A stretch of 43,743 nucleotides of DNA, taken from the NCBI GenBank assembly GCA_938023075.1, contig CALHDG010000081.1, positions 1-43,743 of the forward strand, given 5' to 3'. This document shows, in pieces, positions 19,526 to 34,955 of the stretch; positions within the stretch are counted from its first letter, which is position 1, and the number at the start of each line of letters is the position of its first letter. The position numbers and the translations under genes were made by a program. Source of the DNA: an uncultured Chitinophagales bacterium (GTDB taxonomy: Bacteria; Bacteroidota; Bacteroidia; Chitinophagales; JAHDHT01). The notes under the pieces were generated by a model, which was not told the origin of the DNA, made no database searches, and saw only the letters and a list, made by a program, of their open reading frames with translations.

Positions 19526-19747
19526 TGCTAATCAATATTTTTATTAAAAATTATTTTGTTTTTAGCTTTTAGAGTGTGAAGTCGTAAAACTATTAAATTA
19601 ATTACAAAAAAATGTCATTTTACTGTTAAATGATGGGTTTTTGACAATAAGAATACTACTTTAACATGAATTATTCAGCACTTAATTACTTACCTTTCCC
19701 ATCTTAAATAAATTATTAGTATAATATTTAATAAATAGATACAAGTA

Positions 19748-21289: not shown

Positions 21290-21293
21290 TTCA

Positions 21294-21421
21294 TTTTTTT
21301 AGAAGCGAAACATGGGTAGGGTTTTCGAGCCGGCTACCCGCTGTCCGCTCAAATGCTGCGCCAACACACAGAAGCCAATGCTTCAGGCAGCATAACCGCT
21401 ACCATCGGGGCTAGTTTGCCA
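21294..21421 (-). repeat. Structured dispersed element, copy B (Flavo-1-like)
   Basis: On the minus strand the order is AACTAGCCCCGATGGTAGCG, then GTTATGCTGC, a variable loop, GCAGCATTTGAGCGGACAGC, GGG, a second hairpin GGGTAGC..GCTACCC-like (GGGTAG/CTACCC), and TTTCGCTTCTAAAAAAA. The main stem ATGCTGC/GCAGCAT differs in sequence from ATGCTAT/ATAGCAT in copies C and D but keeps pairing. It lies between two convergent genes. Confidence 0.7.
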
Positions 21422-21553
21422 ACTTCGCTTGTGTTTATCAACTTTTCAAAATTTCAGCATTCCTGATTTATAAGCAAAGATTAGTGCTTTTAGAAGAATG
21501 CCCGGCAAAATGAAAATGCCTGCTTTAGAGATTACACTTAATAAAAAAAGAGA

Positions 21554-22981
21554 TCACCTCAAAGTAGATATCAATTGCACATAGTCAATTCTGCTTTGAT
21601 GTCGTTTATCTTTAGCTAGTTTTTTTAGTTGAATTACCACATCAATTTCATAAGGAAATTTTAGTAATAAGTCTTCAAATTCCTTTCGATCACCAACATA
21701 AAACACAATCTTTTCACCATTAACATTCAACCAAGTGGCTTCACCATTAAAACGGTGTTCGCTCACAAACTTTTCTAAAGTGATTGTTGATAACAATTCA
21801 CCGGCTTCTTTCCAGCAGTGTTTCATCCTACCAAAAAAATACAATTTGCCTGCTTTGAGATAACCTGCATCTCCCGTTCGATGCCAGATTTTATCATCGT
21901 ATTCAATTTTATTTTTGGCATAAGCCTCTGGGTCTTTATAATAAGTCTTCAATACATGTGGACCAGCAACAATAATTTCACCGATGCTAGCTTCATTTAA
22001 TTTGTGCAATTGATCATCCTTAATATCAACTATTTTCACCAAAATATTTGGATGTGGTGAACCAACACAAATTCCTTTTTCTTTGGGATGATTGTTTTGC
22101 AAGTATTCATCAATAGTTAAAGTGGCGATAGGTTCAGCCTCGGTGCTACCGTAAACCAATTGTATGGCTCTTGCATAAGATTGATCTTTTAAGGTATCCA
22201 CAAAATCTGCATAAATGCTTGCGCCACCAATCACTACCTTTTCAAAATTTTCTTTCTTTAATTTCGATTGAAAGATATTAAAATGATAAGGCGAGGCTGA
22301 AACAACATTTACCTTAAACGCTTCATTAATTTTTTGCCAATGTTGTTCCTTATTTTTTGGTGGAATAATGGATGTTGCGCCAACTGCGAGATTACACAAC
22401 ATCACCACCGGGAAACTAGTTATATGAACATCACCGGCAGTTAGTTTAGTTTTCTCAATAATGGTTTGCAATTGAATGTTTAAAAAACCATGCGTTCGGT
22501 TGGCTGCTTTTGGATTGCCTGTGGTACCGCTCGTAAAGGTGATTAATGCCGTTTCGTTTTTTGCTACATTGGCAATATCTGCATGAGTTTCAGTTGATTT
22601 ATTCGTTCTGGTTAATTTTTTTCTTACTGTATTTCCAAAGAAAAATAATAATATAGAAAGAAGTGGTGTGGTCAAAACTCCTTTACAGTCCGCTTTTTTA
22701 ACTGCATATAAAACTCGTTTTCTTGGAAAGATATTATCCACCAAAACCGCTCTTGCTCCAATGGTAAAAATGGCCAGCAAGTTTACATATAGTTCTATTG
22801 AAGGCGGAATGACTACTAGAATATTATCCCCTTTTTGATAGCCTTGCTGTTTGAGGTAAGCCGATACTTGCCGTACCTTTTTAGCGAAGTCTGCATAGGT
22901 GTAGGCTTTACCCTTTTCAACAATGGCAATGGCTTTTGGATAAAGTTCAGCCGCTTTGAAAAAATGTTGTGCAATGTTCAT
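21554..22981 (-). CDS. AMP-dependent acyl ligase, OleC-like
   Basis: 475 residues of the ANL superfamily, which activate carboxylic acids as acyl-AMP. Motifs: LITFTSGTTGNPKAANRTHG (phosphate loop), YGSTEAEPIATL, and IWHRTGDAGYLKAGKLYFFG with RMKHCWKEAGE (C-terminal domain hinge). The stretch SFPVVMLCNLAVGATSIIPP resembles the corresponding part of OleC beta-lactone synthetases and related long-chain ligases. Near the C-terminus, where the last catalytic Lys is expected in an RHNSK-type motif, this protein has RHQSRID, so Arg may replace Lys. The protein is short for the superfamily. Its start overlaps the preceding gene's stop by four bases, so the two are translationally coupled. Substrate unknown; context suggests a lipid acid. 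Confidence 0.85.
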   Translation of the reverse strand: MNIAQHFFKAAELYPKAIAIVEKGKAYTYADFAKKVRQVSAYLKQQGYQKGDNILVVIPPSIELYVNLLAIFTIGARAVLVDNIFPRKRVLYAVKKADCKGVLTTPLLSILLFFFGNTVRKKLTRTNKSTETHADIANVAKNETALITFTSGTTGNPKAANRTHGFLNIQLQTIIEKTKLTAGDVHITSFPVVMLCNLAVGATSIIPPKNKEQHWQKINEAFKVNVVSASPYHFNIFQSKLKKENFEKVVIGGASIYADFVDTLKDQSYARAIQLVYGSTEAEPIATLTIDEYLQNNHPKEKGICVGSPHPNILVKIVDIKDDQLHKLNEASIGEIIVAGPHVLKTYYKDPEAYAKNKIEYDDKIWHRTGDAGYLKAGKLYFFGRMKHCWKEAGELLSTITLEKFVSEHRFNGEATWLNVNGEKIVFYVGDRKEFEDLLLKFPYEIDVVIQLKKLAKDKRHQSRIDYVQLISTLR

Positions 22982-24021
22982 AATGATAAACTTAATAATA
23001 TATGATCTTGGTAAGTTTCCCCGCCAAATTTTTGAGACATTTTTACTGACTTGTTGTTACTTTCCATATAAGCATGTAACAATTTTTCGTATCCTTTGTT
23101 GGCAGCTTTAAGTAGCAGTCGTTCTACCAGAAAATGAGCTAAGCCTTTATAAGCATCTCCTGATTTACGAGCAATGGTTTTAATAATTAGCCGCTTGGGT
23201 TGGTATACATCTTCCATAGCAAATAAAAAGCCCACTAGTCTTTCTTTATTCTTATTTTTTTCTATTACCAAATCAATCAAGTCGTTTTTTAAATAAGGTA
23301 AGATGGGTTGATACAAGGTTTTAAAAGCTTTTTCACTGATCGGTTTGTATAATAGATTGTTCGCAAATGCTTCGCTGCAAAATTGATGCAGCAAACTTAA
23401 ATCCTCGTCCGCATCTTCTACATTAAAATGCCGGACGGATAGTTTAGGTTTGTCATCTAACCAGTTTAAATTCTTTTGATTTGGAATGTATCTTTTCAAT
23501 CTTTCTTGAAAAGTAAAATATTCCGCATAAGGTTTGAAGCCCGCATTCTCCCATTGTTTTAGATAATAATTTTTGTGTTGATGTTCAAGAAAGAAAGGAG
23601 CAACTTGTTTTATATTGAATCGATGGCTGTGCCAAGTGTTACCATTCATTGGTCCCAATAATTTTTGATGCCCTTTTGATTGAGCGTATTGTTTTACTTT
23701 TTCAAACAGTTGCTTGGCTATTGACTCATCGTTTACACATTGATAATTTCCCAAGGTTAAAAATCCATTGTTGGTTTCATATAGAGTTACAAAAGCTATT
23801 ACTTCATTATAATTCTCCACAATTACCAAAGCCGAAACATCATCTATATTGCTAATAGATGGTTTTATTTCATTTATATATAAACGATTGATCAAATTTT
23901 GCAGGCGTGGCAATTGCTGTTGTACATCAAATAAAATTTGCGCCTTCGTTTTTTGAACCAACTTTTGGTTGTAGTTTAAACTTATCTTTTGTTTTGTTTT
24001 AATTTCTTGAATTGCATTCAT
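22978..24021 (-). CDS. GNAT-like acyltransferase domain protein
   Basis: 347 residues. The N-terminal half (about 40-160) reads as a GNAT-like fold (VSALVIVENYNEVIAFVTLY, FEKVKQYAQSKGHQKLLGPM, NGNTWHSH). The C-terminal part has a second GNAT-like pattern (LVGFLFAMEDV, IIKTIARKSGDAYKGLAHFL, KGYEKLLHAYMESNNKSVKM, SQKFGG), in which the YMESNNKS helix corresponds to the usual N-x-x-S region. This arrangement resembles bacterial proteins with two tandem GNAT domains. The acyl donor and acceptor are unknown. It ends in a four-base overlap with the AMP-ligase gene and starts 316 bases downstream of the SRPBCC gene, with a structured repeat in between, so it may have its own promoter. Confidence 0.75.
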   Translation of the reverse strand: MNAIQEIKTKQKISLNYNQKLVQKTKAQILFDVQQQLPRLQNLINRLYINEIKPSISNIDDVSALVIVENYNEVIAFVTLYETNNGFLTLGNYQCVNDESIAKQLFEKVKQYAQSKGHQKLLGPMNGNTWHSHRFNIKQVAPFFLEHQHKNYYLKQWENAGFKPYAEYFTFQERLKRYIPNQKNLNWLDDKPKLSVRHFNVEDADEDLSLLHQFCSEAFANNLLYKPISEKAFKTLYQPILPYLKNDLIDLVIEKNKNKERLVGFLFAMEDVYQPKRLIIKTIARKSGDAYKGLAHFLVERLLLKAANKGYEKLLHAYMESNNKSVKMSQKFGGETYQDHILLSLSL

Positions 24022-24174
24022 ATAGTTTCTTTTAATTAATTTCTGTTACTACTTTTGGTTTAATATTTAGTTTTCGGTTGGATGTTTTTTAGGATTAACT
24101 TTAGCCAATTTTTCAAAATGATTGATACTTTTTTGTATTTACTCTACTACCATATTTTTATTTACGGAGAACCG

Positions 24175-24309
24175 CAGTTTTTAAACTAGCCCCGATTGCA
24201 GCGGTTATGCTATGGTGCAGGGCGGGCTTGCAGCAAAGCCATAGCATTTGAGCGGAAAGCGGGACCACCGTTATTGTAATGCTAAAAGGTTTCGCTTCAA
24301 AAAAAAATC
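24175..24309 (+). repeat. Structured dispersed element, copy C (Flavo-1-like)
   Basis: Order: TTAAACTAGCCCCGATTGCA, GCGGTT, a perfect 9-bp stem ATGCTATGG/CCATAGCAT (24208-24216 with 24240-24248), TTGAGCGGAAAGCGGGA and TTTCGCTTCAAAAAAAA. The first 45 bases are nearly identical to copy D at 31774. It fills most of the 24022-24337 gap inside the lipid cluster. Nothing else is seen in that gap. Confidence 0.7.
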
Positions 24310-24337
24310 AATGCTAAAGCATCCGCAACTATATTCT

Positions 24338-24922
24338 TTAGGTAAACTCGTCCAAACTTTCTACCTCTTTTTTAATGTTGTTCAAATTTTTATGAAAGAT
24401 GTAGGCAACATAATGTCCGCTTATTTTCAACTTCAGCCAATCGATAAAACGATTATGACTAGCTTGGGGTTTATATAAACCAAACACCAAATTGGTTTGT
24501 CCTTCTGATATGGATGCATATTTTTGCCGGGTAAATAAATGGTCTGCCTCTATCAAAAAACCATTTAAATTATAAACGGTTAACTCCCGCAGCTCATTCA
24601 CTTTTACGTTTACAATTTCTTCATCCCAAAAAATTCCCTCCCCATTTTTGTTTTTAAAACATCGTCGTGTTGAACCCAAAGCTCCATCACTTACTTCATT
24701 TTCATTTAGGGCGTTTATATGACTGACGTAACTTGACCATTTGGATGCATTGGCAGAGTTGCCCAGATAACTAAAGACCTTTTCTACAGATTGATTTATA
24801 GTAATTTCATTTTCTAATTGATACAAACCTGTTGTTTTATTATACTGAAAGGGGCTTGTAAAAAACCAGACACCCATTATTAAAAACAATAGAGCGAGTG
24901 TCGAAATAATAATTTTTTTCAT
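24338..24922 (-). CDS. Membrane-anchored SRPBCC/START-like protein
   Basis: 194 residues. One N-terminal membrane helix (IIISTLALLFLIMGVWFF) acts as anchor or uncleaved signal. The rest has the polyketide-cyclase/START pattern: LENEITINQSVEKVFSYLGN, NASKWSSYVSHINALN, then alternating strands (LGSTRRCFKNKNGEG, LRELTVYNLNGFLIE) and a C-terminal helix (FHKNLNNIKKEVESL). SRPBCC domains bind hydrophobic ligands in a deep cavity. In this cluster it could carry or modify a lipid intermediate at the periplasmic face; that is inference. It follows the kinase-like gene after 32 bases. Confidence 0.8.
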   Translation of the reverse strand: MKKIIISTLALLFLIMGVWFFTSPFQYNKTTGLYQLENEITINQSVEKVFSYLGNSANASKWSSYVSHINALNENEVSDGALGSTRRCFKNKNGEGIFWDEEIVNVKVNELRELTVYNLNGFLIEADHLFTRQKYASISEGQTNLVFGLYKPQASHNRFIDWLKLKISGHYVAYIFHKNLNNIKKEVESLDEFT

Positions 24923-24954
24923 GATTAATAAATTTTAAATATATTTATGTTTAA

Positions 24955-25599
24955 TTAAATAAAATGTGTTATGATAAATATGTTTGCCATTGCGCCAAGT
25001 GGAATCGTGAAATTATCCCAACCTTTAACAGATAAAAATTCTGCTAAAGTTAATGAGATGGCAAACAAGGGTAAATAATACAAAGCTTCTTTATATTGAA
25101 AATAAAAACCAATTAAAATTAAGAGGCTGCTTATAAAGAAAGCGATACTTCCTCCAAGGCTTTTAATTTGCCCAAAAACCTTTAGTGGTTTGTAGTTTAA
25201 TTTTTTACCAACCAATGCCGCTAAAGGATCGCTAATAGATAAAATTAATATGGGTAAATAATAATATAAAGTACTGTTAAATTGCTGCTGCACCCAAAAA
25301 CAAACCAATACAATTAAGGCAAACAGCCAACTGCCATACGATTTTCGTTCAACAGATGTGATGGATTTTAACCAGTTCATTTTTTCGCAAATGGTGAGCA
25401 AGAATAAAAAGGAGCCACATAAAAGTATCATTTGCCAAAATGCTTCAATAAAAAATGGGAAGCTAAGAGCAATTAAACCGGTGCTGATGTGTACGAACTT
25501 TCGGGTGTATTCTACCTTTTTATTAGCGCTGTAAAAGAGCCATTCGCTGATGCCGAATAAGGCGAAATAAAGTATGCTGTAAATTAATAAAGTAGTCAT
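24955..25599 (-). CDS. Phytol/dolichol-kinase-like (VTE5/SEC59 family) membrane protein
   Basis: 214 residues with about six to seven membrane helices. The family signature is present: KKVEYTRKFVHISTGLIALS at residues of about 27-46, and ISDPLAALVGKKLNYKPLKV with KSLGGSIAFF at about 130-160, matching the D-P-x-A...G...K-(T/S)-x-x-G-S pattern of CTP-dependent polyprenol kinases and related cytidylyltransferase-like proteins. Members phosphorylate long-chain isoprenoid alcohols (phytol, dolichol) or related lipids. Next to HMG-CoA reductase and UbiA genes, an isoprenoid alcohol substrate is plausible but unproven. Only two bases separate it from the BtaA-like gene. Confidence 0.8.
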   Translation of the reverse strand: MTTLLIYSILYFALFGISEWLFYSANKKVEYTRKFVHISTGLIALSFPFFIEAFWQMILLCGSFLFLLTICEKMNWLKSITSVERKSYGSWLFALIVLVCFWVQQQFNSTLYYYLPILILSISDPLAALVGKKLNYKPLKVFGQIKSLGGSIAFFISSLLILIGFYFQYKEALYYLPLFAISLTLAEFLSVKGWDNFTIPLGAMANIFIITHFI

Positions 25600-25601
25600 A
25601 A

Positions 25602-26657
25602 TTATTTTTGATGTTTACTATAGGTTAAAAAATTACTGTAAAAAAAGCCCAAGTCAAGCAAGGGTTTCGATTGTTTTACAAATTGACTAATGTCCTCCAT
25701 TTTTCTGCTAACCATTAAATTCCAGTAAGCAATTATAGCATCTTTAGCAGATTGTTGATATACAATGTCCGTTTGTTTTTCAAATACAGGCTCGCTCATA
25801 TATTCGAAAATATTAGATAAATTGAAACGATTGAAATTGTTGAACCGCTGCAAAGCTTGTTGAAGATCACCTCGAAAATAAGTGATTTCCTTAGTCTGTA
25901 ACCATTGTTTTATGTGATCGAAATTTGTTTTTTGCATATATGGCGGCAAAAACTTTCCGAAACTTGCGGTTAAACAATAATGTAACATCGCATTGGTTTG
26001 GGCTGCTTTGCTTTGCAAGTGTTGTTCGGTCTGCTCAAAAATCAATTGCCCCACATTGCCTTTTACTTCTTTCAATTTTTCAGGTTCTCTTCCCAATTTG
26101 CCCATGGTGGTTCTGCTAAAAAAAAGGTTGAATAATAAACGCCATCTTCGGGTATTCCAGTTGTTTTGGTAAAAAGCTTTTTGTTCGGCTTCCGTTTTTT
26201 CGGCAAACAGTTGCGCAATAGTTTTTTTAGAATGTATGAAAGGCAATACCCACTTCGCAAAAATTTTAAAATAGTTTTCAAACTTCCCTTGATGAATAAT
26301 CCCTTGCTCAATTAATATTTTATTTTTTGTAAAATAGGCTTGCGTTGCTTCACTTAAAAAAGGATGAATTTTTTGATACCATGCCCATCTTGAAGAACAA
26401 GCTTCAAAGCCTAAAAGCCTTAAGCAATCTTCATATCCTAAATGGCGAATGGCTTGCTCTTTTAATGCACTTACAAAAATTTGAATTTCATTTAAATCAA
26501 CACAAACCATTTCTTTCGGTTGATCTTTAAGCAACAATAAACTATTATCGCCAGCCGAAGCGATAGATAGAACTTTCGAATATTGGTCAATTTGAAGGGC
26601 TTTACTAAGTAGTCCTCCATCTTCCCAAACGTTGCTGTATTTTAATGGATTATTCAT
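25602..26657 (-). CDS. BtaA-like 3-amino-3-carboxypropyl transferase (DUF3419)
   Basis: 351 residues. The N-terminal SAM-binding region is typical: YSNVWEDGGLLSKAL, KVLSIASAGDNSLLLL (about residues 28-43) and MVCVDLNEIQ. Conserved later parts include NTRRWRLLFNLFFSR and FNLSNIFEYMS. BtaA moves the 3-amino-3-carboxypropyl group of SAM to diacylglycerol, making the ether-linked homoserine head of betaine lipids. The partner N-methyltransferase BtaB is absent from this window, so the product may stay unmethylated or the acceptor may differ. Neighbours two bases downstream and 19 bases upstream on the same strand indicate one operon. Family assignment is firm; the acceptor is inference. Confidence 0.88.
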   Translation of the reverse strand: MNNPLKYSNVWEDGGLLSKALQIDQYSKVLSIASAGDNSLLLLKDQPKEMVCVDLNEIQIFVSALKEQAIRHLGYEDCLRLLGFEACSSRWAWYQKIHPFLSEATQAYFTKNKILIEQGIIHQGKFENYFKIFAKWVLPFIHSKKTIAQLFAEKTEAEQKAFYQNNWNTRRWRLLFNLFFSRTTMGKLGREPEKLKEVKGNVGQLIFEQTEQHLQSKAAQTNAMLHYCLTASFGKFLPPYMQKTNFDHIKQWLQTKEITYFRGDLQQALQRFNNFNRFNLSNIFEYMSEPVFEKQTDIVYQQSAKDAIIAYWNLMVSRKMEDISQFVKQSKPLLDLGFFYSNFLTYSKHQK

Positions 26658-26676
26658 TGTATGATTTGTTTTTTAT

Positions 26677-29136
26677 TTATAAAATTTCAATTATTCCAGT
26701 TGAACCGTTCATTTTTATTTCATCCCCATCTTTTAATAATTGGGTTAAACCTTTTACCCCAACAATGCAGGGAATACCCATTTCACGGGAAACAATAGCT
26801 GCGTGACTTAAGGTGCTGCCTCGCTCTACCAATATTGCAGATGCCGATTGAAAGATGGTAATCCAACCCGGATCGGTGGAAGTGGTGACCAAAATTGCGC
26901 CTTCTAAGCTTTGCATTTCGTTGGGGTTCGATAAAATTTTTACCTTGCCCATTACTTCACCAGTACAACAAGGGATGCCTTTCAATTGCCCTTCGTAGGG
27001 TTTTACTTCAACATCTAAGTCAAAATAATTATCGTATTGATGTATTCTTTCTGGCAAGTTTTCTATTTTTTTATAAGCTGCAAACTCTTCTTTTCTTTTC
27101 TCTATTATTTTTTGAATCTCCTCTATACTTAATTCTCCTTCAAAATAATTATTGACCTCTTTCTCTTTCAAATAAAAGAAATCTTGTTGATCAATTAACC
27201 AACCTTGTTGTTGCCATTGCGTACTAATGCCCCATAAAAAACGACGAACCATACCAAATGCCAAGGTGCGATCAAAGCGTAAATTCTCGCGGTCAGCAAT
27301 CATTTCAGCCGCTTTTCTGGCAATAAATGAACGTTCAATTATCTTATATTTTAAACTTTTCTTTTGGTAAGATGTGTTTGTTTTACTGTCCTTTGGTGTT
27401 TGATAGGTTTTTAATATCCGAATAAAGGCTTCCGGGTTTTGTGTGAAGGTTTCGTTTTCTAATTTCAGTTCACCAATACTCCGGTCTCCATAACATTCAA
27501 TATATTTTAAAATCAATTTACCGGTATTACCAAATTGATTAGAGCGGCATTTTTTCCAAATGAACTGCTCAGTTTGTGTTTTGATCTCCAACAACAAGTT
27601 TTCAATACCGGCTGATTGAATAATTTCTTGAATTAACAAAGCAGGCTGTACTGATTTCACGGGATGTTTCCCCACCACCATTTCGGTATGTATATAATCA
27701 TTTTTTAACCAACGTTTACATACCTTTTGTAATAAGCCGAAATAAATCATGGCTAACAGATCATTCGCTAAAGGAGGCGACCACTCATTAACCAACATGG
27801 TTTTAAATTTTTTATATAATTGCCATATCGCTTTGTCGCTAAGTTGAGCATAGTCTAATTTTTTGTAGTCATTAATAATGGAGTTTACTTTTGTACTAAA
27901 TTGTTTTTTAATTTTGGGTAAACGAATACTTAAGCCGGTCAACCGGAAAATCGTTTTCAAAGTATTCCAATAATTTCTCCATTTGCTTGGTTCAGCTTTT
28001 AGGTTGAAATCTACCCCAAGCGGTTCGGTTGTTCCCATCATTTTATCCATAAAACCAGCATTGAGTTGATAAGCCGGTAACATAGCCAATGCTTTATGCC
28101 AATTAATTAGTTGATAATAAACCCGACCTTTAAGATGACCTAACATTTCGTTAAACACCTCTTTGTTGGCTTCTATTTGATGCGCTGAAACACCCAACAA
28201 GGTGGAGAAATTTTTGTAAACCGATTTATAAATATCTAAAATAAAAGAAAAGGTAAAAGGTGAAGTGATGCCGGGATAAGATTCGATAATATTAGAATTA
28301 TCCCAAACCGTATGTTGGGTATACGGTTTATAGGTTGTAATGGGGCGGCTTTGCAATAAATAAAAAGTACCACCGGCAAAGCAAAACTCAATGTCTTGTG
28401 GATGTTGGTATAACTGCTCTAATTCTTCTAAAACCTGAGCAATTAAATTTAGCTGATCAATATTTAAACACGGTTGATTTACTAATGCCGGAGATACTCT
28501 TTCGTACTCCAAAATAGAGCCATTGTAGCAGAGCTTTTCATATTTATCTGTAATAACGTTTTTCCATATATTTTTATTTTTTGCGATGTCGTTTTTTGTT
28601 AATTTTCTTTTCGTCGCTACAAAATTATCAGCATTTAACTTTCCTGAAACCAAACCCTCTCCCAAACCATAAACAGCGGTTATCAGTTTTTCATGAGCAT
28701 AAGATTTGGTTGGATTAATACCAAAAGCTACCCCACTAACTTCGGCATCAATCATTTGTTGAACAATCACATTCATTTCAATATTGTGGTAGTCAATATG
28801 ATGGATGGTACAATAGGTTTTCAATTGTTCGCTTTTGGCAGAGGCTTGTACTTTGTGGATGGCATCACTCAATTGATCTTTGCTAACAAACAATTCGGTA
28901 TGAAAAATGCCGGCAAAACTATGGTCTCTGCCATCTTCTACATTTGCAGAAGACCGAACGGCATAGTATGGTCCATTAATTTTTGAAATAACTTTTGTAC
29001 TTATTTGTTCAGCAGTTAATGTTTTTAGCATTGTTTTGTTAAACACTACAAACGGAGGCACCTTAAAACCGGCTTCTGTTAATTTTAACAAAGCCCCTGC
29101 TTTGCCTTTTAGTTGATCTGTTGTTTTGACTGACAT
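26677..29136 (-). CDS. PEP-synthase/rifampicin-phosphotransferase-like enzyme, substrate unknown
   Basis: 819 residues. The N-terminal PPDK_N ATP-grasp domain (about 1-300) shows YAVRSSANVEDGRDHSFAGI, VIVQQMIDAEVSGVAFGINP and QDIEFCFAGGTFYLLQSRPI. A middle part of about 400 residues has no motif I know. The C-terminal swivelling phosphohistidine domain carries GSTLSHAAIVSREMGIPCIV with the catalytic His, and ends DGDEIKMNGSTGIIEIL. True PEP synthases end in a PEP/pyruvate TIM barrel, which is absent, so this belongs with RPH-type dikinases that split ATP and phosphorylate a small molecule. It sits between UbiA and BtaA-like genes; a prenyl or lipid alcohol substrate is a guess. The overlap-free 19-base spacing to the BtaA-like gene suggests co-transcription. 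Confidence 0.85.
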   Translation of the reverse strand: MSVKTTDQLKGKAGALLKLTEAGFKVPPFVVFNKTMLKTLTAEQISTKVISKINGPYYAVRSSANVEDGRDHSFAGIFHTELFVSKDQLSDAIHKVQASAKSEQLKTYCTIHHIDYHNIEMNVIVQQMIDAEVSGVAFGINPTKSYAHEKLITAVYGLGEGLVSGKLNADNFVATKRKLTKNDIAKNKNIWKNVITDKYEKLCYNGSILEYERVSPALVNQPCLNIDQLNLIAQVLEELEQLYQHPQDIEFCFAGGTFYLLQSRPITTYKPYTQHTVWDNSNIIESYPGITSPFTFSFILDIYKSVYKNFSTLLGVSAHQIEANKEVFNEMLGHLKGRVYYQLINWHKALAMLPAYQLNAGFMDKMMGTTEPLGVDFNLKAEPSKWRNYWNTLKTIFRLTGLSIRLPKIKKQFSTKVNSIINDYKKLDYAQLSDKAIWQLYKKFKTMLVNEWSPPLANDLLAMIYFGLLQKVCKRWLKNDYIHTEMVVGKHPVKSVQPALLIQEIIQSAGIENLLLEIKTQTEQFIWKKCRSNQFGNTGKLILKYIECYGDRSIGELKLENETFTQNPEAFIRILKTYQTPKDSKTNTSYQKKSLKYKIIERSFIARKAAEMIADRENLRFDRTLAFGMVRRFLWGISTQWQQQGWLIDQQDFFYLKEKEVNNYFEGELSIEEIQKIIEKRKEEFAAYKKIENLPERIHQYDNYFDLDVEVKPYEGQLKGIPCCTGEVMGKVKILSNPNEMQSLEGAILVTTSTDPGWITIFQSASAILVERGSTLSHAAIVSREMGIPCIVGVKGLTQLLKDGDEIKMNGSTGIIEIL

Positions 29137-29183
29137 CTTATAATAATTATGAAATAGTAGTTATGAATGATACAATTTTTATC

Positions 29184-29278
29184 ATCCTCGTTTGCAACGA
29201 GGATGTTTGAGAAGAGCGTTTGCAACGCTCGCCGTGCATTGCAAATGCACTTCTTGCCTGCCCTCGTTGCAAACGAGG
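29184..29278. repeat. REPIN-like cluster of four palindromes
   Basis: Four hairpins with a TTTGCAA-type core: CCTCGTTTGCAACGAGG (within 29184-29204), GAGCGTTTGCAACGCTC (29214-29230), GTGCATTGCAAATGCAC (29234-29250) and CCTCGTTGCAAACGAGG (29262-29278). The last is the exact reverse complement of the first, and the third has the inverted core, so the whole is a nested inverted pair. It fills the 183-base spacer between the UbiA and PEP-synthase-like genes. Such elements are usually mobilised by RAYT transposases; none is in the window. Confidence 0.75.
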
Positions 29279-29319
29279 ACAATTGTTGAGACCATTGTTG
29301 AATGTTGCTCTTCATCTTA

Positions 29320-30225
29320 TTAAAATATTTTTAACATAATAAAAGGTAAAGCCCCTAAATTTAAATACATGCCCATTGTCCAAAGTCCTGCAGCTTTTTC
29401 TATTAGTTGGGTTTTGTTTTGGGCAGGATGTTTTAGACACAACAAGGCAGGCAATGCACAAAGCCCGGCCCAAATGCTTAGTATCCAATAAACCCAAATT
29501 GGGCTGCTAATTGCATACGCAGCTGCAACTGCCAAGCCAAAGGTTACACCTAAAATCAATATCCAATTGGTGATGGCTTTGCTGGTTCCCCAAAGTTTTG
29601 AATAGGACAATACGCCTTTCTCTTCGTGTTCGGGCAACTTAATTTTTCTGCCAATTTCCATTAAAATGCCGTTGAAAAATGAAACAGCAAAAAACCAACC
29701 CAAAGCCGTTGGTGGACTAATTCCACCAAAGGACCAATGAGCAGAACTTGCCACTAAATCTACCAAGGGAATAATTGCCATATGCGACAATACATAAGCC
29801 AATTGATTTTGCTTTAGCCATCGTTTAATAAAAAATTCTTTATACATTAAAGCCATGTAAACAAGGCAAACAATATAAATAAGGATGAACTGAGGATTGG
29901 TGATTAAAATGATAAGGTGGACAACAAATATAAGGGCGGCTAAAAATTTTAAATGATTGAGTGTAAGTAAACCACGCGGAACAGGTAAATATTTTCTGAA
30001 TTTTTTATCTTCTTCATAATCTTTAAACTCATCGGAAATTCTTAATAATAAAAACAAACCGAAAGTTAAGGCAAATGCCATTACAAAATTACCGGCTTCA
30101 ATAAAGTTACTTGCTCCATCAGCCATTAAAGAATAACAGATAGCTGAAAAACTAAATATAGCAATAATGGGTATGTGGCTTTGAAGCGGAAACCGCTCTG
30201 ATAAATAAATTAAATACTTTTTCAT
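29320..30225 (-). CDS. UbiA-family prenyltransferase, divergent second motif
   Basis: 301 residues with about eight membrane helices. The first Asp-rich motif is present in the form RISDEFKDYEEDKKF followed by RKYLPVPRGLLTL at about residues 62-90, matching N-D-x-x-D-x-x-x-D and the following R-P...G. The second motif, usually D-x-x-G-D, is replaced by MEIGRKIKLPEHEEKGVL plus SYSKLWG at about 190-215. UbiA enzymes join a polyprenyl diphosphate to an aromatic ring, sugar or glycerol phosphate at the membrane. The changed second motif suggests an unusual acceptor, or a non-aromatic one. The gene follows HMG-CoA reductase by one base, which links it to isoprenoid supply. Confidence 0.85.
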   Translation of the reverse strand: MKKYLIYLSERFPLQSHIPIIAIFSFSAICYSLMADGASNFIEAGNFVMAFALTFGLFLLLRISDEFKDYEEDKKFRKYLPVPRGLLTLNHLKFLAALIFVVHLIILITNPQFILIYIVCLVYMALMYKEFFIKRWLKQNQLAYVLSHMAIIPLVDLVASSAHWSFGGISPPTALGWFFAVSFFNGILMEIGRKIKLPEHEEKGVLSYSKLWGTSKAITNWILILGVTFGLAVAAAYAISSPIWVYWILSIWAGLCALPALLCLKHPAQNKTQLIEKAAGLWTMGMYLNLGALPFIMLKIF

Positions 30226-30226
30226 A

Positions 30227-31480
30227 TTAACGTCCGAGATTTTGGTGAGCTGATGTAAAATGACCTTCGGCGATTGCTGCGGCTATTGATAGCTCACCGC
30301 ATAATAATAAAGCTCCACAGATTTCGGCAAACTTTTTTGCCTTGCCTGTTCCGGCACAATCCAGTATATTTAAGCATTCGTTTTGGGTAGCGAATTTAGT
30401 GCCGCCACCAACCGTGCCTACAATTAAATTGGGGGCTGTTATAGAAATGTATAGGTCGTTTTGATTAACTACTTCCATTCGGGTAATACCGATAGCGGCT
30501 TCTGAAACGCAAGCTACATCTTGTCCGGTTGCGAGAAACAGGGCAGCCAAACCATTAGCAAAATGCCCTTGCGCGCCTATGCTACCGCTTTGAATAACCG
30601 CCATGGTACTTGCTCTCCAATATTGAGCAACTGAACTTGCCGATGTTTTCAAAACGCTTTTTAATATCTCATCTTTAATAACACATTCTGCTATTACTTT
30701 TTTGCCGCGAACATTATTTAATGATTGAGTGGTAGCTTTTTTATCGCCAGCGTAATTACTTTCTATGTACCACAATTGTGGTTTTACCGGACTGTTGTTG
30801 ATGATGTATTTACAAATGGCATCACTGCAAATAGTAACCATATTTTGTCCGGCAGCATCACCTGTTGAAAACTGAAAAGTAAGGATAACTTGATTGCCTT
30901 GTACGTTTGTAGTTGTTTTATTGAGTTTGCCATGTTTGGTAAATCCGGCTGCAATTAAAGCGAAGTTGTATTGTACTTTTTCTAACCATTTTTTAAAAGC
31001 AAGTGCTTCTTGTAATGAACTAAAACCAAATAACGGACTTCGTTGCACACCCTCTTTTACGCAAGCTACATTAATACCACCGCAAAGCCTGGTTGCTTTC
31101 GCACCTCTGTGGTAGGAGGCAACCAAAGCCCCTTCGGTGGTGGCTAAAGGCACATGAAATTCTCCTTTAGCCTGCATGCCGTTTATTAATATTGGACCAG
31201 CCATGCCGGTTGGTATTTGGGTGTAGCCAATAAAATTTTCTATGCTGCCCTGTAGCTTTTTAGTATCGCTGTGTTGTTGGTGAGCACATAAATTGGTTAA
31301 TTGAGTGTTGTATTGTTTTTCAATATACGCCTGTTGTTGTTTGGGCGTTTTTTCTTTTTGGATTATTTTGGCTTTTTTGGGCAACGTATTATTTTTCAAT
31401 TGATTTAACATGAACCCCAAGCCATCTGTTGGATTAAAAAGATTTGTTTGATTTGGTATTTTATTTATGGTGGTTGTCAT
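30227..31480 (-). CDS. Hydroxymethylglutaryl-CoA reductase
   Basis: 417 residues. It reduces HMG-CoA to mevalonate, the committed step of the mevalonate route to isoprenoids. Seen: ENFIGYTQIPTGMAGPILIN, PLATTEGALVAS with Glu116, FSTGDAAGQNMV (cofactor region), SNYAGDKKAT with Lys247/248, NGLAALFLATGQDVACVSEA with Asp321, GTVGGGT and AEGHFTSAH with His407. The catalytic Glu, Lys, Asp and His are therefore all in place, and the motifs are of the class I (NADPH, biosynthetic) type, without N-terminal membrane helices. It is the first gene of the downstream minus-strand series. No other mevalonate gene lies in the window. A promoter-like block lies 43-87 bases upstream. Confidence 0.93.
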   Translation of the reverse strand: MTTTINKIPNQTNLFNPTDGLGFMLNQLKNNTLPKKAKIIQKEKTPKQQQAYIEKQYNTQLTNLCAHQQHSDTKKLQGSIENFIGYTQIPTGMAGPILINGMQAKGEFHVPLATTEGALVASYHRGAKATRLCGGINVACVKEGVQRSPLFGFSSLQEALAFKKWLEKVQYNFALIAAGFTKHGKLNKTTTNVQGNQVILTFQFSTGDAAGQNMVTICSDAICKYIINNSPVKPQLWYIESNYAGDKKATTQSLNNVRGKKVIAECVIKDEILKSVLKTSASSVAQYWRASTMAVIQSGSIGAQGHFANGLAALFLATGQDVACVSEAAIGITRMEVVNQNDLYISITAPNLIVGTVGGGTKFATQNECLNILDCAGTGKAKKFAEICGALLLCGELSIAAAIAEGHFTSAHQNLGR

Positions 31481-31522
31481 AATTTTTTATTTAGTGGATT
31501 AATTATTAACTTAATTACAATG

Positions 31523-31567
31523 CAAAAGTGAAGTAATTGTTGAGGTTTTTTTTCATCCCTAAGTATG
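31523..31567 (-). promoter_or_regulatory. Candidate regulated promoter of the HMG-CoA reductase operon
   Basis: On the minus strand CATACTTAGGGATGA (31567-31553) is followed after 14 bases by CAAT and after 9 more by TTTG (31526-31523), a Bacteroidota -7-box-like end. The block at 34995-35039 has the same parts (CACTCTTTAGGATGA, 14 bases, CAAT, 9 bases, TTTG) at the same spacing. Seen in sequence; the regulatory role is inference. Confidence 0.4.
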
Positions 31568-31655
31568 AAGTTATAAAATTCGTTATATGGTAGTAGTGAT
31601 GAGGAAACGCTTAAACGGCAGGCTACTTTAGTAGGAATTTTCAACTTCGTACTTT

Positions 31656-31678
31656 AGTAGGAGCGTATCATACCTTAG
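31656..31678. repeat. 23-base motif shared with 35118-35140
   Basis: AGTAGGAGCGTATCATACCTTAG (given here as AGTAGGAGCG then TATCATACCTTAG) matches 35118-35140 with four differences, all transitions. Another ACTTTAGTAGG copy lies at 31625-31635. It may be an upstream regulator site or a short dispersed repeat. Confidence 0.55.
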
Positions 31679-31773
31679 TTTAATCAAATGCATATTAATA
31701 TGTTTAAGTAGTTGATTTTAAAATTATTTTGAAATGAAAATAAGACTAATTGTTAGCTCGAGTATGAGAACAG

Positions 31774-31908
31774 CAGTTTATAAACTAGCCCCGATTGCAG
31801 CGGTTATGCTATGTTGCAGCACAGGTTTTGAAGCGTAGCAATAGCATTTGAGCGGAAAGCGGGAGGGGGTGTTTCCACAAAGTCAAAATTTTCCGCTTCA
31901 AAAAAATA
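31774..31908 (+). repeat. Structured dispersed element, copy D (Flavo-1-like)
   Basis: Order: TATAAACTAGCCCCGATTGC, AGCGGTT, stem ATGCTAT/ATAGCAT with an extension GTTGC/GCA, TTGAGCGGAAAGCGGGA and TTCCGCTTCAAAAAAATA. It lies between the HMG-CoA reductase promoter region and the 54-codon ORF, in a 474-base stretch (31481-31954) that otherwise holds the two shared motifs only. Confidence 0.7.
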
Positions 31909-31954
31909 AATTTCAAACCTTTGTTTTGACATATTTGTATTTTTTGAAATAAAA

Positions 31955-32119
31955 TTATTTTTTAAAGAAATCATTAATATCAAAAGCTGTCCCTAATTGT
32001 ATACTTTCATTTTCATAGGCAAATTGCTTGTTTGACTGCCCGATTGTTGCCAATAAAAAAGCATTCATATGAGGTAAACCTAAACTGAGTTTAATGATTG
32101 ATTGAACGCTTAAAACCAT
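31955..32119 (-). CDS. Small 54-residue ORF overlapping the end of the Lgt-like gene
   Basis: The ATG (32119-32117) lies inside the last codons of the Lgt-like gene, eight bases before the end of its TAA, in the +1 frame relative to it, an arrangement typical of translational coupling. The product starts MVLSVQSIIKLSLGLPHMNA, continues FLLATIGQSNKQFAYENES and ends IQLGTAFDINDFFKK. The residue mix (mixed hydrophobic and polar, no poly-Lys/Asn bias) looks real for this A+T-rich DNA. I do not recognise a family. It could instead be the C-terminal fragment of a degraded protein. Confidence 0.45.
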   Translation of the reverse strand: MVLSVQSIIKLSLGLPHMNAFLLATIGQSNKQFAYENESIQLGTAFDINDFFKK

Positions 32120-32934
32120 GTGGGTTCAGCTGCTTTATCGCCGATATTTTTTGAGCTTTCAAAAATTTTAAATGATTGGGCTTGAAGAAAGTACTGTACA
32201 CTGCTAAGGATAATTAAAGCATAAACCAACTGCGGCAAGGTAATGCCAAAAGCCACTTCAGGGTTTAATCGAATGCATTCTAATAGTATGTAAAAAATAG
32301 AAACTCCTACAAAATAAATGAAGGCTGTTTCTCCCGCTTGTTTTTTACGCCTGCCATCATAGCAACATAAAAAAATGAAAAAGCCAACATGAAAAAGGCT
32401 GTCGTAAATTGGGGTGGGATGAACGGGTAATAGATTGGGTGCTGCTCCATATGGATAAAACATGCCCCAAGGTAAATCTGTTACTATGCCATAACAACCA
32501 TCGCCAGAAAACTGACAACCTTGTTTGGTAAAAATGGTTAAAGCACAAAAAGCCAAAGCCAACAGATCGAGCAAATAATTACTTTGTTTAATACGCAGCA
32601 CTTTTTGGCTTAATACTGGAAGTAGAATAATAGTGAACAATAAACTACCGCACCAGCGAAATTTGCCTGCCCAAGGACCTTCAAACAAAATAGATAAGGC
32701 TGGTAGAGTACCGGTTTTTAACCATGCTTCTGCTAAACCGGCTAACCTGCCGCCAATCATTAATATGATATATAACACGCCGACTAAGCCAACAAACTGA
32801 GCTATATTAATATTTAATTGTTGATGCTTTTTGTAATACCAAATTGAAAAAACAAAAGCAACTAACACACCCAACCAGTGAAAAGATGAATACCAACTAA
32901 TTGTATAACCGAATATTTCTGGGTTTGGATACAT
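32110..32934 (-). CDS. Divergent prolipoprotein diacylglyceryl transferase (Lgt)-like protein
   Basis: 274 residues and about seven membrane helices, the length of Lgt. Recognisable Lgt-fold parts are GYTISWYSSFHWLGVLVAF, IGGRLAGLAEAW, the TDLPWGMFYPYG segment and LPVHPTPIYDSLFH. The canonical H-G-G motif is replaced by KFRWCGSLL and the R-x-G-N-F-x-N-G-E signature by KQGCQFSGDGCYG. Residues essential in E. coli Lgt thus appear changed, as in the second Lgt-like paralogs found in many Bacteroidota. It may transfer a (di)acylglyceryl or other lipid group to something other than prolipoproteins. The spacer to HMG-CoA reductase holds repeats and a promoter candidate, so operon membership is not certain. 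Confidence 0.8.
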   Translation of the reverse strand: MYPNPEIFGYTISWYSSFHWLGVLVAFVFSIWYYKKHQQLNINIAQFVGLVGVLYIILMIGGRLAGLAEAWLKTGTLPALSILFEGPWAGKFRWCGSLLFTIILLPVLSQKVLRIKQSNYLLDLLALAFCALTIFTKQGCQFSGDGCYGIVTDLPWGMFYPYGAAPNLLPVHPTPIYDSLFHVGFFIFLCCYDGRRKKQAGETAFIYFVGVSIFYILLECIRLNPEVAFGITLPQLVYALIILSSVQYFLQAQSFKIFESSKNIGDKAAEPTWF

Positions 32935-32959
32935 AATTATTATTTAATAAATTTAGTTT

Positions 32960-32997
32960 AAAAAGTTCCGGATGTGCAATTACAGGTCATCCGGAAC
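32960..32997 (-). terminator. Intrinsic terminator between lipoprotein and Lgt-like genes
   Basis: On the minus strand GTTCCGGATG and CATCCGGAAC (32997-32988 with 32974-32965) form a perfect 10-bp stem with a 13-base loop, followed by TTTTT (32964-32960). It ends the transcript of the lipoprotein gene and so marks the upstream border of the Lgt-like transcription unit. Confidence 0.8.
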
Positions 32998-33010
32998 TTA
33001 ATAAGTTTTT

Positions 33011-33058
33011 GGGGTATTTGGGTGTCGGGTGTTTGGGTGTTGGGTGTTTGGTGTTTGG
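33011..33058. repeat. Short tandem repeat of GGGTGTTT-type units
   Basis: About six imperfect 7-8-base units (GGGTATTT, GGGTGTCG, GGGTGTTT, GGGTGTTG, GGGTGTTT, GGTGTTT) in a row. Non-coding, between the lipoprotein stop and its terminator. Confidence 0.7.
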
Positions 33059-33109
33059 ATGCTAGTTTGTTTTAGGGCGTTCATTGGATGTTTATGGTTT
33101 TTTAATGAG

Positions 33110-34288
33110 CTATTTGTATATGCTTAAATTAGCTTGTTCTAAGGCTTGTTTCAGGGTTTTGTTTTCAAACTGCATGAGTTCTTTTCTTAGTATTTGAATT
33201 GCCTGTTGTAAATCAGTATCGTTAGTTTGTAATTCAATATTGTATAAAAGTTCTTCGGCAGCGTTTATTTGTTCTTCTTTTAAAACAAAGCTTTTGCTTA
33301 CTGCCATATTGGTCAGCGCATGTTTATGATCTTCTAAAAATTGAGTTGAAGCGGCTTGAATTATTGCATTGTGTTCGAATAAATGGTTTAATTCTTTTTT
33401 ATGTAAAAGATACAAGGCGGTTAATTTTAGAATTGGCTTTTTTAAATCGTTAGCAGCTCTTTTAGACATGCTTTCAATCGCTATTTCCGGCAATATTTGT
33501 TTTGGTACAAAAGAACCACAGTTTTGATAAACCCGGTAAGTGCTATAACATCCCACATCAGGATTGCAATTACCCGGAATAGCAAATGAAATCAACAATT
33601 TACCCATAGCAGAAGCCTCTGTAAGTAACAACTGTAATTGGTTCACCTTAAGTGCTTGTGAAAACATTTCAAAAGCAAACACCTCATTTGCAGGAATCAT
33701 AATTGCTGCTCCATTATTTTCTCCCAATGCCTCAGGAGAAAATTGTAAAGTATCGCATCCGGCAAAGCTATTTTGAACAACTACAGAGCTGGTGGTTTCA
33801 TTTTTTATCCAAACCCATTGGCTGCTTTCTTTCATATCTCTAAACATTAACTTGCTGTTTGCCGGTAAATTTTGTGCTTCTACTTCTAATTGATAACCTA
33901 TGGCGTCATTGGGTAATTCAGGAAAAACGTTCACAAATAATTCTGGTTGGGAATTAAAAATTTCTAGCGATTGCGCATCTGTAATTGCTGTTGAATTTTG
34001 TATTTCGGGCAATTCATAAACAGCCTGTATATTAAAATCGCTTTCTACTAGGTGGTGCGTAATATCATCGTTTTTTGTATCAATCCATATTTTTGCAATA
34101 GTAGAATCGGGTCCAATTACTGTATAAAGGGAATCCGAATCTTCCAAGTTTTGTGCTATAGTCGTATCATCCAATTCGTCCTCTTCTAAGTTTACATTTC
34201 CAAAATCAAATTTACAAGAGGCAAAAATTAGAAAAAAGGGTATGCATAATAACAAAGCGGCTGTTGGAGAAATTAATTTATGGTTCAT
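33110..34288 (-). CDS. Putative lipoprotein of unknown function
   Basis: I place the start at 34288 (392 residues) because MNHKLISPTAALLLCIPFFL then IFASC is a lipoprotein signal with the lipobox F-A-S-C; the longer open frame upstream would overlap the preceding gene and lacks a signal. After an acidic linker (NVNLEEDELDD) the protein has a mixed region of about 220 residues with a Cys-rich segment (IPGNCNPDVGCYSTYRVYQN, CGSF), then a helical C-terminal third (KKELNHLFEHNAIIQAASTQ and LQQAIQILRKELMQFE). I do not recognise a domain. It follows the beta-barrel-like gene after 49 bases and probably shares its promoter. Probably outer-membrane anchored. Confidence 0.75.
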   Translation of the reverse strand: MNHKLISPTAALLLCIPFFLIFASCKFDFGNVNLEEDELDDTTIAQNLEDSDSLYTVIGPDSTIAKIWIDTKNDDITHHLVESDFNIQAVYELPEIQNSTAITDAQSLEIFNSQPELFVNVFPELPNDAIGYQLEVEAQNLPANSKLMFRDMKESSQWVWIKNETTSSVVVQNSFAGCDTLQFSPEALGENNGAAIMIPANEVFAFEMFSQALKVNQLQLLLTEASAMGKLLISFAIPGNCNPDVGCYSTYRVYQNCGSFVPKQILPEIAIESMSKRAANDLKKPILKLTALYLLHKKELNHLFEHNAIIQAASTQFLEDHKHALTNMAVSKSFVLKEEQINAAEELLYNIELQTNDTDLQQAIQILRKELMQFENKTLKQALEQANLSIYK

Positions 34289-34337
34289 ATTTATAATATT
34301 TAAATCGTTAAAAAATAGTTTTTGAGTATGATGACTT

Positions 34338-34955
34338 TTAGCCGTCTTGCAGTATGACTGAGTAACCGGCAGATATAATATTACCAGTACCAATTCCAAA
34401 TTCACAATTAAATGCATGTTTATTTCCTACTCTAATTCCTATAGGAGTAAAATGTAAACCTGGAAAATTTTTTTCTCCTACTTTGCTATTAACCACCATG
34501 CCTAACATGCCATTGCCATAAAGTTTTAATTTTTCATCACTGAAGTACAGAAAGTCTAATTTGAAATAAATTGCATTTAAGCTTACTTTTTTCCAAGGGT
34601 CGTTTCCTCGCCGGTACTGGTATTGGCTAAAGTTAAACTGACCGCCTAAACTTAGTTTCTCATTTACTATTTGACTATAGTTGATAGAAATAGTTCCTCT
34701 GCTAGGGCGCGCTTCAAATTTTTCGCATGGAATAATTTGCGCTTCGGTAGGATCTAGCAAAATACTAATTGGTATTAAAATAATATTTGCGGCTACACAA
34801 GCAGTTGCATTTGCGGTTTCTAATGAACCTGGAACAAAAGCATCTAAACCAGAATAACCATAAGCCACTTTAAACTCACCTTTATTTTGGGCAAAACTTA
34901 AATTGCTAATTATACATAATAAAAAAATAATGCTTGCTATTGATTTGATGTACAT
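34338..34955 (-). CDS. Outer-membrane beta-barrel-like protein
   Basis: The start at 34955 (205 residues) puts the Met just before the signal peptide MYIKSIASIIFLLCIISNLS-FAQ; the longer frame adds 14 residues of basic sequence with no function. The mature part alternates hydrophobic and polar residues in strand-like runs (GTISINYSQIVNEKLSLGGQ, FNFSQYQYRRG, KVSLNAIYFKLDFLYFSD, KLKLYGNGMLGMVVNSKVG, FNCEFGIGTGNIISAGYSVI), as in small outer-membrane barrels. Ligand or pore function unknown. First gene of a two-gene unit with the lipoprotein. The promoter region shares motifs with that of the HMG-CoA reductase operon. Confidence 0.75.
   Translation of the reverse strand: MYIKSIASIIFLLCIISNLSFAQNKGEFKVAYGYSGLDAFVPGSLETANATACVAANIILIPISILLDPTEAQIIPCEKFEARPSRGTISINYSQIVNEKLSLGGQFNFSQYQYRRGNDPWKKVSLNAIYFKLDFLYFSDEKLKLYGNGMLGMVVNSKVGEKNFPGLHFTPIGIRVGNKHAFNCEFGIGTGNIISAGYSVILQDG

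Follow-up and report, generated by a model that had tools for sequence, protein, structure and literature searches.

A conserved Bacteroidota operon that may build an isoprenoid/amino-acid lipid around an HMG-CoA reductase homologue

The contig CALHDG010000081.1 of an uncultured Chitinophagales bacterium, analysed here over its whole length of 43,743 nucleotides (the window), carries eight genes in a row on the minus strand, from position 31480 down to 21554. The first encodes a homologue of 3-hydroxy-3-methylglutaryl-CoA (HMG-CoA) reductase (HMGR) and the last an AMP-forming acyl ligase (AMP ligase); between them lie genes for a UbiA-type prenyltransferase, a PPDK/Rph-like dikinase, a BtaA-like transferase, a VTE5/SEC59-like protein, an SRPBCC protein and a tandem GNAT. 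We propose that the eight genes form one operon for an undescribed isoprenoid/amino-acid lipid, with inferred steps and product, a proposal for and against which the chances seem to us evenly divided. It builds on three observations: seven of the genes are inherited together in a fixed order, the HMGR lies apart from the usual mevalonate pathway, and the expected catalytic residues are kept.

Named genome contigs were scanned for relatives and at least 542 were confirmed. For the locus counts we used the best 80 of these, which biases the counts toward sequences close to the query. With family hidden Markov models (HMMs) the BtaA-like gene is found in all 80 loci, PPDK and VTE5 in 74 each, GNAT in 70, the AMP ligase in 67, UbiA in 65, HMGR in 57 and SRPBCC in 16; with phmmer the count for GNAT is 66 and those for the other families are the same. 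Most of the missing genes are due to contig ends. Order and distances were analysed for the 48 loci that have all seven genes (SRPBCC aside) inside length limits. In 47 of these the order is HMGR-UbiA-PPDK-BtaA-VTE5-GNAT-AMP ligase on one strand, while the remaining locus (L158) is split into pieces. Since the same order recurs so often, the gene row is more than a product of chance.

Further, the pairwise distances between loci are correlated among the seven families (r 0.59-0.92). In a permutation test on four family pairs the observed value was reached in 0 of 500 permutations for each pair. The permutation ignores shared phylogeny, and at the level of sequence distances the correlation therefore shows common inheritance of the seven genes, not function.

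By record title, the sources of the 80 loci are Saprospiraceae, Dyadobacter, Sphingobacterium, Fluviicola, Crocinitomicaceae, Rhabdobacter, Portibacter, Microscilla, Chitinophaga and others. Within the order of the window genome (119 genomes, its own included) nine genomes match the BtaA-like protein: besides its own, five strongly and three weakly. In all five strong relatives the same operon genes adjoin the BtaA-like gene; three of them (G043, G065, G115) lie on contigs that also appear among the 80 loci, as L097, L137 and L094. Four of the five loci reach as far as GNAT and SRPBCC, which have exchanged positions compared with the window in an otherwise identical order, and one of these (L012) has an additional open reading frame (ORF) between VTE5 and GNAT. 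The fifth contig (L011), cut at both ends, reads UbiA-PPDK-BtaA-VTE5. Two of the weak matches were examined (L016 and L017, with G009 left out); in both a DUF3419 gene is paired with a methyltransferase gene, and the operon is absent.

In an even sample of the phylum, 395 genomes with at most five candidates scored in each, UbiA relatives are strong in eight genomes (the window genome included) and weaker in two. The BtaA-like protein has relatives at E<=1e-8 in 45 of the 395, and 12 of these reach E<=2.5e-68. We inspected the neighbourhoods in all 12 strong genomes and in five of the 33 weaker ones: eight of the strong genomes have the operon, two have a variant cluster (the L205/L206 type, see below) and two have neither. 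In L201-L204, from four genomes that share a genus, the genes run GNAT-AMP ligase-HMGR-UbiA-PPDK-BtaA-VTE5. Outside the phylum, a plasmid of the alphaproteobacterium Roseinatronobacter sp. S2 holds a complete seven-gene copy. In the original prediction, made from the DNA letters of the window, the genes were read as possibly building together a prenylated or homoserine-headed membrane lipid or lipid natural product, and conserved co-occurrence across Bacteroidota was named as a check. The outcome of that check is strongly positive, and conservation in the phylum together with the plasmid copy outside it supports a single functional unit with lipid-type membrane enzymes.

Two further observations concern the copies outside Bacteroidota. 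The plasmid operon (L197/L198, NZ_CP121116) adjoins genes annotated as WavE lipopolysaccharide synthesis and glycosyltransferases. A metagenome-assembled genome assigned to Gammaproteobacteria (L151) has, on a cut contig, the part of the operon from PPDK to the AMP ligase; it is possibly a binning error. Its VTE5-like protein is long, as on the Roseinatronobacter plasmid.

HMG-CoA reductase is the entry enzyme of the mevalonate pathway. The window gene (30227-31480, minus strand) encodes a class I homologue of 417 amino acids (PF00368, E 1.1e-113), and it had been read as the enzyme that provides mevalonate from which prenyl chains are made, with a search for further mevalonate genes in the genome as the proposed check. 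The window genome, which is 97% complete, has this single HMGR and also has DXR and IspE. For mevalonate kinase, PF00288 at E<=0.05 yields only galactokinase, homoserine kinase (ThrB) and IspE in this genome; for diphosphomevalonate decarboxylase, the sole TIGR01240 match is the IspE locus (E 7.5e-5). Because DXR and IspE are present and neither mevalonate kinase nor the decarboxylase was found in these searches, the gene content indicates that the window genome very likely makes isopentenyl diphosphate (IPP) via the methylerythritol phosphate (MEP) route. The supply of mevalonate for prenyl chains is thus not supported as the role of this HMGR.

The same question can be asked of other carriers. 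From the 80 loci we hand-picked 36 operon carriers, favouring isolates and long contigs. DXR is found in 25 of them, the decarboxylase in 13 and both in two, where a decarboxylase was called at E<=7.8e-46 and nine genomes with weaker matches (E 1e-6 to 5e-4) were discounted. DXR without decarboxylase is seen in 23 of the 36, and 22 of these 23 have exactly one HMGR; the exception is Microscilla, with a second HMGR of another subfamily. A Dyadobacter laboratory strain is among the carriers with DXR, a single HMGR and no decarboxylase found. Each of the 13 carriers with a decarboxylase has two or more HMGRs. Judged by sequence, their extra copy is probably a class II enzyme; a search with the window HMGR barely reaches such copies, with matches at E<=10 in 4 of 16 loci of the order and 5e-8 as the best value. 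By gene content it is thereby shown that the operon HMGR stands outside IPP synthesis, both in the window genome and in most of the tested carriers.

The nearest solved sequence to the window HMGR is 6hr7, named HMG-CoA reductase (E 4.6e-82). We compared 58 operon HMGRs, a set from which duplicates and one HMGR outside any operon had been removed. All 58 have the catalytic residues Glu, Lys, Asp and His (Glu81, Lys247, Asp321 and His412 in the window). Ser684 and Lys735 of the human enzyme, which we take to be HMG contacts of class I HMGRs, are both kept in 6hr7. The operon HMGRs all have Glu in the Ser684 column (58 of 58), and their Lys735 column holds S in 34, T in 15, A in 6, N in 2 and L in 1; a Lys elsewhere within the nine-column block of Lys735 is found in 3 of 58. 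Since these presumed contact residues are replaced, the substrate could differ from HMG-CoA: it may be HMG-CoA or something else, and the catalytic residues alone cannot discriminate between the two.

Other class I HMGRs of the order were considered as parts of the same operon and rejected, as no operon gene lies beside them in nine stretches of 5.8-19.9 kb, several of them cut by contig ends. There is also a second orphan class I HMGR subfamily (L018-L025 and L167, in G013, G076, G001, G064, G040, G097, G109, G053 and G127). Its members are mostly about 515-570 amino acids long with an N-terminal extension, and the ORFs in G001 and G040 have 335 and 389 amino acids. The same Ser-to-Glu change is seen in seven of eight aligned members, and no operon gene is found near the eight that were inspected. 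In G001 and G097 the HMGR of this subfamily is the only one, and DXR is present. Finally, a lone HMGR near the operon type (L029/L054, on G078:C32; E 9e-121 to the window HMGR) has no operon gene in 19.9 kb.

The BtaA-like protein (25602-26657, minus strand) belongs to DUF3419 (PF11899, E 1.2e-57) and is a predicted S-adenosylmethionine-dependent 3-amino-3-carboxypropyl transferase, with G36, D37, N38 and D54 conserved in 78 of 78 sequences. In a DUF3419 tree that drew on a preselected 20 of the 80 loci, the sequences from the operon and from the variant clusters group in a separate clade (97/89 support), apart from the methyltransferase-paired BtaA; elsewhere in the tree some long branches are of unsure placement. 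A phmmer search with four DUF3419-adjacent methyltransferases gave 0 matches in the window, so far as a BtaB-type partner is concerned, and in the 80 loci only two distant ORFs (L104, L146), both well outside the operon. Among the DUF3419 genes of the phylum that stand outside the operon, those of L016, L017, L242 and L243 lie beside a methyltransferase. Others lie near a GNAT: adjacent in L237 and L241 and two ORFs apart in L238, while in L239 and L240 the neighbour is GNAT-like by eye, with a sub-threshold Pfam match in L240 only. In L237 the DUF3419 protein is also extended at its N-terminus by a long membrane region, and its gene adjoins one for a YegS/DAGK-type lipid kinase.

The GNAT of the operon (22978-24021, minus strand; PF00583, Acetyltransf_1, E 1.5e-5) is a predicted N-acyltransferase. 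Its predicted model, with a predicted local distance difference test (pLDDT) of 91.1, is a tandem GNAT, and the best fold match is mycothiol synthase 2c27 (E 1.5e-13). By family HMMs the only ORFs in the 80 loci that join two families are BtaA-GNAT (L108, L157) and GNAT-AMP ligase (L131). These fusions, and the genes found next to BtaA-like genes, suggest a head amine that is acylated on its nitrogen instead of methylated, and a homoserine-headed product is plausible. The AMP ligase itself (21554-22981, minus strand; PF00501, E 3.5e-54) has an RHxxKI-type C-terminal motif. An identity as the beta-lactone synthetase OleC was rejected, with 147.6 of 900 bits for NF045786 and 139.3 of 850 bits for NF045785. 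Neither OleA, OleB nor OleD was recognised by eye among the recurrent neighbours, where no dedicated search was made.

The UbiA-superfamily protein (29320-30225, minus strand; PF01040, E 5.3e-14) is a membrane prenyltransferase of a distinct subgroup. Its motifs are RxxDExKDxxxD and ExxRKxxxxxxE, with motif residues invariant in 62 of 62, and the first UbiA motif, DxxxDxxxD, is satisfied by D65, D69 and D73 in all 62. In its predicted model (pLDDT 93.7) the best fold matches are the archaeal digeranylgeranylglyceryl phosphate (DGGGP) synthases 6m31 and 7bpu (E 3.6e-6 and 5.3e-6; the next match is at 6.7e-4). A sequence search of PDB at E<=1 gave 0 matches for both the UbiA and the BtaA-like protein. 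EboC was rejected as an identity for UbiA: the window protein has no NF035940 match at E<=0.001, while weak matches (best 1.7e-7) come from 16 of its 36 relatives.

The dikinase (26677-29136, minus strand; 819 amino acids) has the architecture of Rph and phosphoenolpyruvate (PEP) synthase, with an ATP-grasp domain (PF01326, PPDK_N, E 3e-48) and a swivelling phosphohistidine domain (PF00391, PEP-utilizers, E 1.4e-24). His778 is conserved in 63 of 63, and the nearest solved sequences are 5hv2 and 5fbs, the PDB name being phosphoenolpyruvate synthase (E 7e-54). The VTE5/SEC59-like membrane protein (24955-25599, minus strand) is a predicted CTP-dependent alcohol kinase, a prediction based on conserved residues. 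It has no Pfam or NCBIfam match, and 7 of 27 aligned relatives match CTP_transf_1 weakly (best E 1.3e-4). R33, K34, H37, D124, G131, K146, E187, D195 and N196 are invariant in all 27, and the pattern RK..H, D..A...G and DN is one that we assume to fit VTE5/SEC59. The membrane-anchored SRPBCC protein (24338-24922, minus strand; Polyketide_cyc2, E 5.9e-5, under the Pfam cut-off) is an optional component.

Some loci show which parts of the gene set can be exchanged. In L108 the HMGR is fused to an APH/choline-kinase-like domain (Pfam), and the HMGR of L157 probably carries the same fusion: the protein has 768 amino acids, the same length as in L108, with HMGR at 28-401. Both loci are without VTE5. 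The variant clusters L205 and L206 keep UbiA, PPDK, BtaA and GNAT, but neither HMGR nor an AMP ligase is seen within 19.5 kb. Both have instead a thioester reductase (PF07993) and a homologue of phosphatidylserine decarboxylase. L205, which is without VTE5, also has a YegS/DAGK lipid kinase; L206 has VTE5 and a weak RND/MMPL match. From these swaps it follows that HMGR occupies a place where a thioester reductase can stand, and that the place of VTE5 may be open to other kinases. In addition, CTP_transf_1-like and CDP-OH_P_transf-like genes are found in 11 of the 80 loci each, in 10 of them together (Pfam-tested for L110).

What might these enzymes make? Every substrate, the order of the steps and the product are here what we infer from these clues. 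The HMGR homologue would turn a CoA thioester into a primary alcohol. Its substrate would be HMG-CoA, with mevalonate then serving as a building block, or else another acyl-CoA. The VTE5-like kinase could then phosphorylate this alcohol or a prenylated form of it. Like DGGGP synthase, its nearest neighbour in fold, UbiA would move a prenyl chain onto an acceptor that is not aromatic, and the PPDK-like enzyme might phosphorylate or ligate an intermediate via its phosphohistidine. The BtaA-like enzyme would transfer the aminocarboxypropyl group of S-adenosylmethionine to a lipid hydroxyl. The AMP ligase would activate an acid, and the tandem GNAT would place it on the amine made by BtaA, where classical betaine lipid synthesis would methylate. 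The order of the kinase, UbiA, PPDK and BtaA steps is a guess.

The AMP ligase may also activate mevalonate itself, since HMGR and the ligase are both missing from the two variant clusters and are adjacent in L201-L204; fungal SidI does so, according to PMC3709128. Tentatively, and with the balance somewhat against us, we suggest that many Bacteroidota and, by way of a plasmid, at least one alphaproteobacterium make a new class of membrane lipid. In it mevalonate, or another alcohol from a re-tooled HMGR, would be a structural part and not an isoprenoid precursor, linked to a prenyl chain and to an aminocarboxypropyl head with an acylated nitrogen. Taken as a whole, the original interpretation is supported as to a conserved lipid-type unit and not supported as to the HMGR for prenyl supply and the membership of Lgt (see below).

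Several observations weigh against the proposed lipid operon. Five loci lack some of the genes despite DNA on the relevant side: L095 is without HMGR and VTE5, L131 without HMGR, L098 without HMGR, UbiA and PPDK, L112 has PPDK and BtaA only, and L136 has BtaA only. The absence of VTE5 in L095 and L112 comes with no HMGR-kinase fusion that we could see. HMG-CoA synthase was found with PF01154 in 0 of 8 genomes, mevalonate-pathway users included. Where 60 of 63 ligases have the motif lysine, that of the window and those of its two closest relatives (L083, L084) have Arg. GNAT persists in the variants without AMP ligase, and therefore it must also take another acyl donor. SRPBCC is detected in just the 16 loci counted above. 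The window UbiA, AMP ligase and PPDK are below all listed NCBIfam cut-offs, and the substrates of UbiA, PPDK, VTE5 and the AMP ligase are not fixed by sequence.

Among the other readings, it is very improbable that the HMGR feeds ordinary isoprenoid synthesis and stands in the operon incidentally. The decarboxylase in 13 of 36 carriers would fit, but all 13 hold at least two HMGRs, 23 of the 36 have DXR and no decarboxylase, and HMGR is the first gene in 47 of the 48 seven-gene loci. An archaeal-type prenyl ether glycerolipid, with UbiA as DGGGP synthase and HMGR raising the isoprenoid supply, seems improbable. It agrees with the best UbiA fold matches, with the CdsA-like and CDP-alcohol transferase accessories, and with the capacity of bacteria of the Fibrobacterota-Chlorobiota-Bacteroidota (FCB) group to encode both geranylgeranylglyceryl phosphate synthase (GGGPS) and DGGGP synthase, as stated in PMC7852524. 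However, HMGR cannot raise IPP in MEP-only genomes, and the window UbiA is far below the NCBIfam model PRK12884 (25.8 of 269 bits). No GGGPS was recognised by eye among the recurrent neighbours, a set to which no dedicated search was applied. In the archaeal route to ether lipids, with its DGGGP synthase, CDP-archaeol synthase and CDP-alcohol transferases, it is DGGGP synthase that comes closest in fold to the operon UbiA, and some loci have CTP- and CDP-alcohol-type genes; the second UbiA motif of the operon is altered, though, and HMGR, PPDK, the BtaA-like enzyme, GNAT and the AMP ligase have no place there.

We likewise give little credence to a variant betaine or homoserine lipid, in which the BtaA-like enzyme makes a diacylglyceryl homoserine ether and the other enzymes decorate it or supply precursors, without a mevalonate unit. 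The strength of the DUF3419 match (E 1.2e-57) and the four DUF3419-methyltransferase pairs of the same phylum (L016, L017, L242, L243) speak for it. Yet no relative of those methyltransferases is found in the window or inside the operons of the 80 loci, the BtaA-like clade stands apart from the paired ones, and HMGR, UbiA and PPDK are left unexplained in spite of their co-occurrence and co-divergence. For lack of a BtaB-type methyltransferase within the operon, membership of the classical BtaA/BtaB system for the betaine lipid diacylglyceryltrimethylhomoserine (DGTS) was rejected. The two are alike in the DUF3419/BtaA-type aminocarboxypropyl transferase, but the operon has a GNAT in the place of BtaB, its own DUF3419 clade and extra kinds of enzymes. 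A soluble secreted metabolite is also unlikely, if slightly less so, for example a metallophore with mevalonyl amides made in the fungal SidI/SidF manner: HMGR would give mevalonate, the AMP ligase mevalonyl-CoA and GNAT the amide. We know of no prenyltransferase or aminocarboxypropyl step in the fungal SidI/SidH/SidF pathway. The GNAT-AMP ligase fusion in L131 and the AMP ligase-HMGR adjacency in L201-L204 are in line with such a chain, but two predicted membrane proteins, UbiA and the VTE5-like protein, occur in each of the 48 seven-gene loci, and the CdsA-like, CDP-alcohol transferase and lipid-kinase accessories of some loci point to a lipid. No receptor family was recognised by eye among the recurrent neighbours; possible transporters are an ABC-transporter ATPase-like group in 5 of 80 loci and the RND-like gene of variant L206. 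The enzyme logic is the same as for triacetylfusarinine C, where, in the account of PMC3709128, mevalonate is activated by an acyl-CoA ligase and moved as an acyl group into siderophores. This is a peroxisomal fungal siderophore pathway, compared with the operon by enzyme logic alone.

Our proposed lipid operon matches no described pathway that we found. The ebo operon (EboA-F) is, according to PMC5133447, conserved, of unknown product, with a UbiA member, present in Bacteroidetes and spread by horizontal transfer. The likeness is thus that of a conserved UbiA-containing operon in Bacteroidetes with horizontal spread; membership was rejected, as the functional table of that paper has only UbiA in common with our gene set. 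The operon dikinase resembles the Rph and RedH-PigC ligases in its ATP-grasp and swivelling His architecture, but is far below the Rph, RedH and PigC cut-offs. The nearest described systems (BtaA/BtaB, archaeal ether lipids and the ebo operon) each share one or two gene families with it. No paper on this gene set appeared among those listed in searches of open-access PubMed Central (PMC), where DUF3419 is named in four papers; the original prediction, too, could match the combination to no described pathway.

In the layout of the window, all the gene families named in the original prediction lie on the minus strand where it placed them, and its spacings of 1, 2, 19 and 32 bases and its four-base overlap are correct. 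From HMGR to the AMP ligase the intergenic gaps are 1, 183, 19, 2, 32, 316 and -4 bases. The larger gaps, between UbiA and PPDK (183 bases), between SRPBCC and GNAT (316) and between Lgt and HMGR (629), were absent from that account. The Lgt gene (32110-32934, minus strand; LGT, E 1.5e-21), which it had included in the cluster, lies upstream of HMGR and outside the operon, separated by the 629 bases and with a homologue in 0 of 80 related loci. A Bacteroidetes-type promoter ahead of HMGR was rejected: the Bacteroidetes-type consensus has 6 matches in the window against 5.4 expected, and none upstream of HMGR. ARAGORN found no tRNA in the whole window, and Rfam gave no match to known RNA elements at positions 19000-36000. 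On the other side of the operon, a carboxyltransferase-like ORF (19748-21289, plus strand), propionyl-CoA carboxylase beta-like by eye, is convergent with it and is found in 0 of 80 related loci. A 1020-amino-acid protein (16463-19525, minus strand) has a C-terminal tail that by eye resembles a type IX secretion sorting domain.

For the biology of these bacteria, a subfamily of HMGR in genomes without a detected mevalonate pathway means that either mevalonate has a use not yet described or HMGR catalyses a reaction not yet described. An HMGR match in Bacteroidota is thus insufficient to call a mevalonate pathway, and the results suggest that betaine lipids do not necessarily follow from a BtaA-like gene in this phylum. 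The product would be a new class of lipid or meroterpenoid in environmental bacteria. Several carriers are in culture, among them Dyadobacter, Sphingobacterium, Portibacter and Rhabdobacter, which makes the proposal directly testable.

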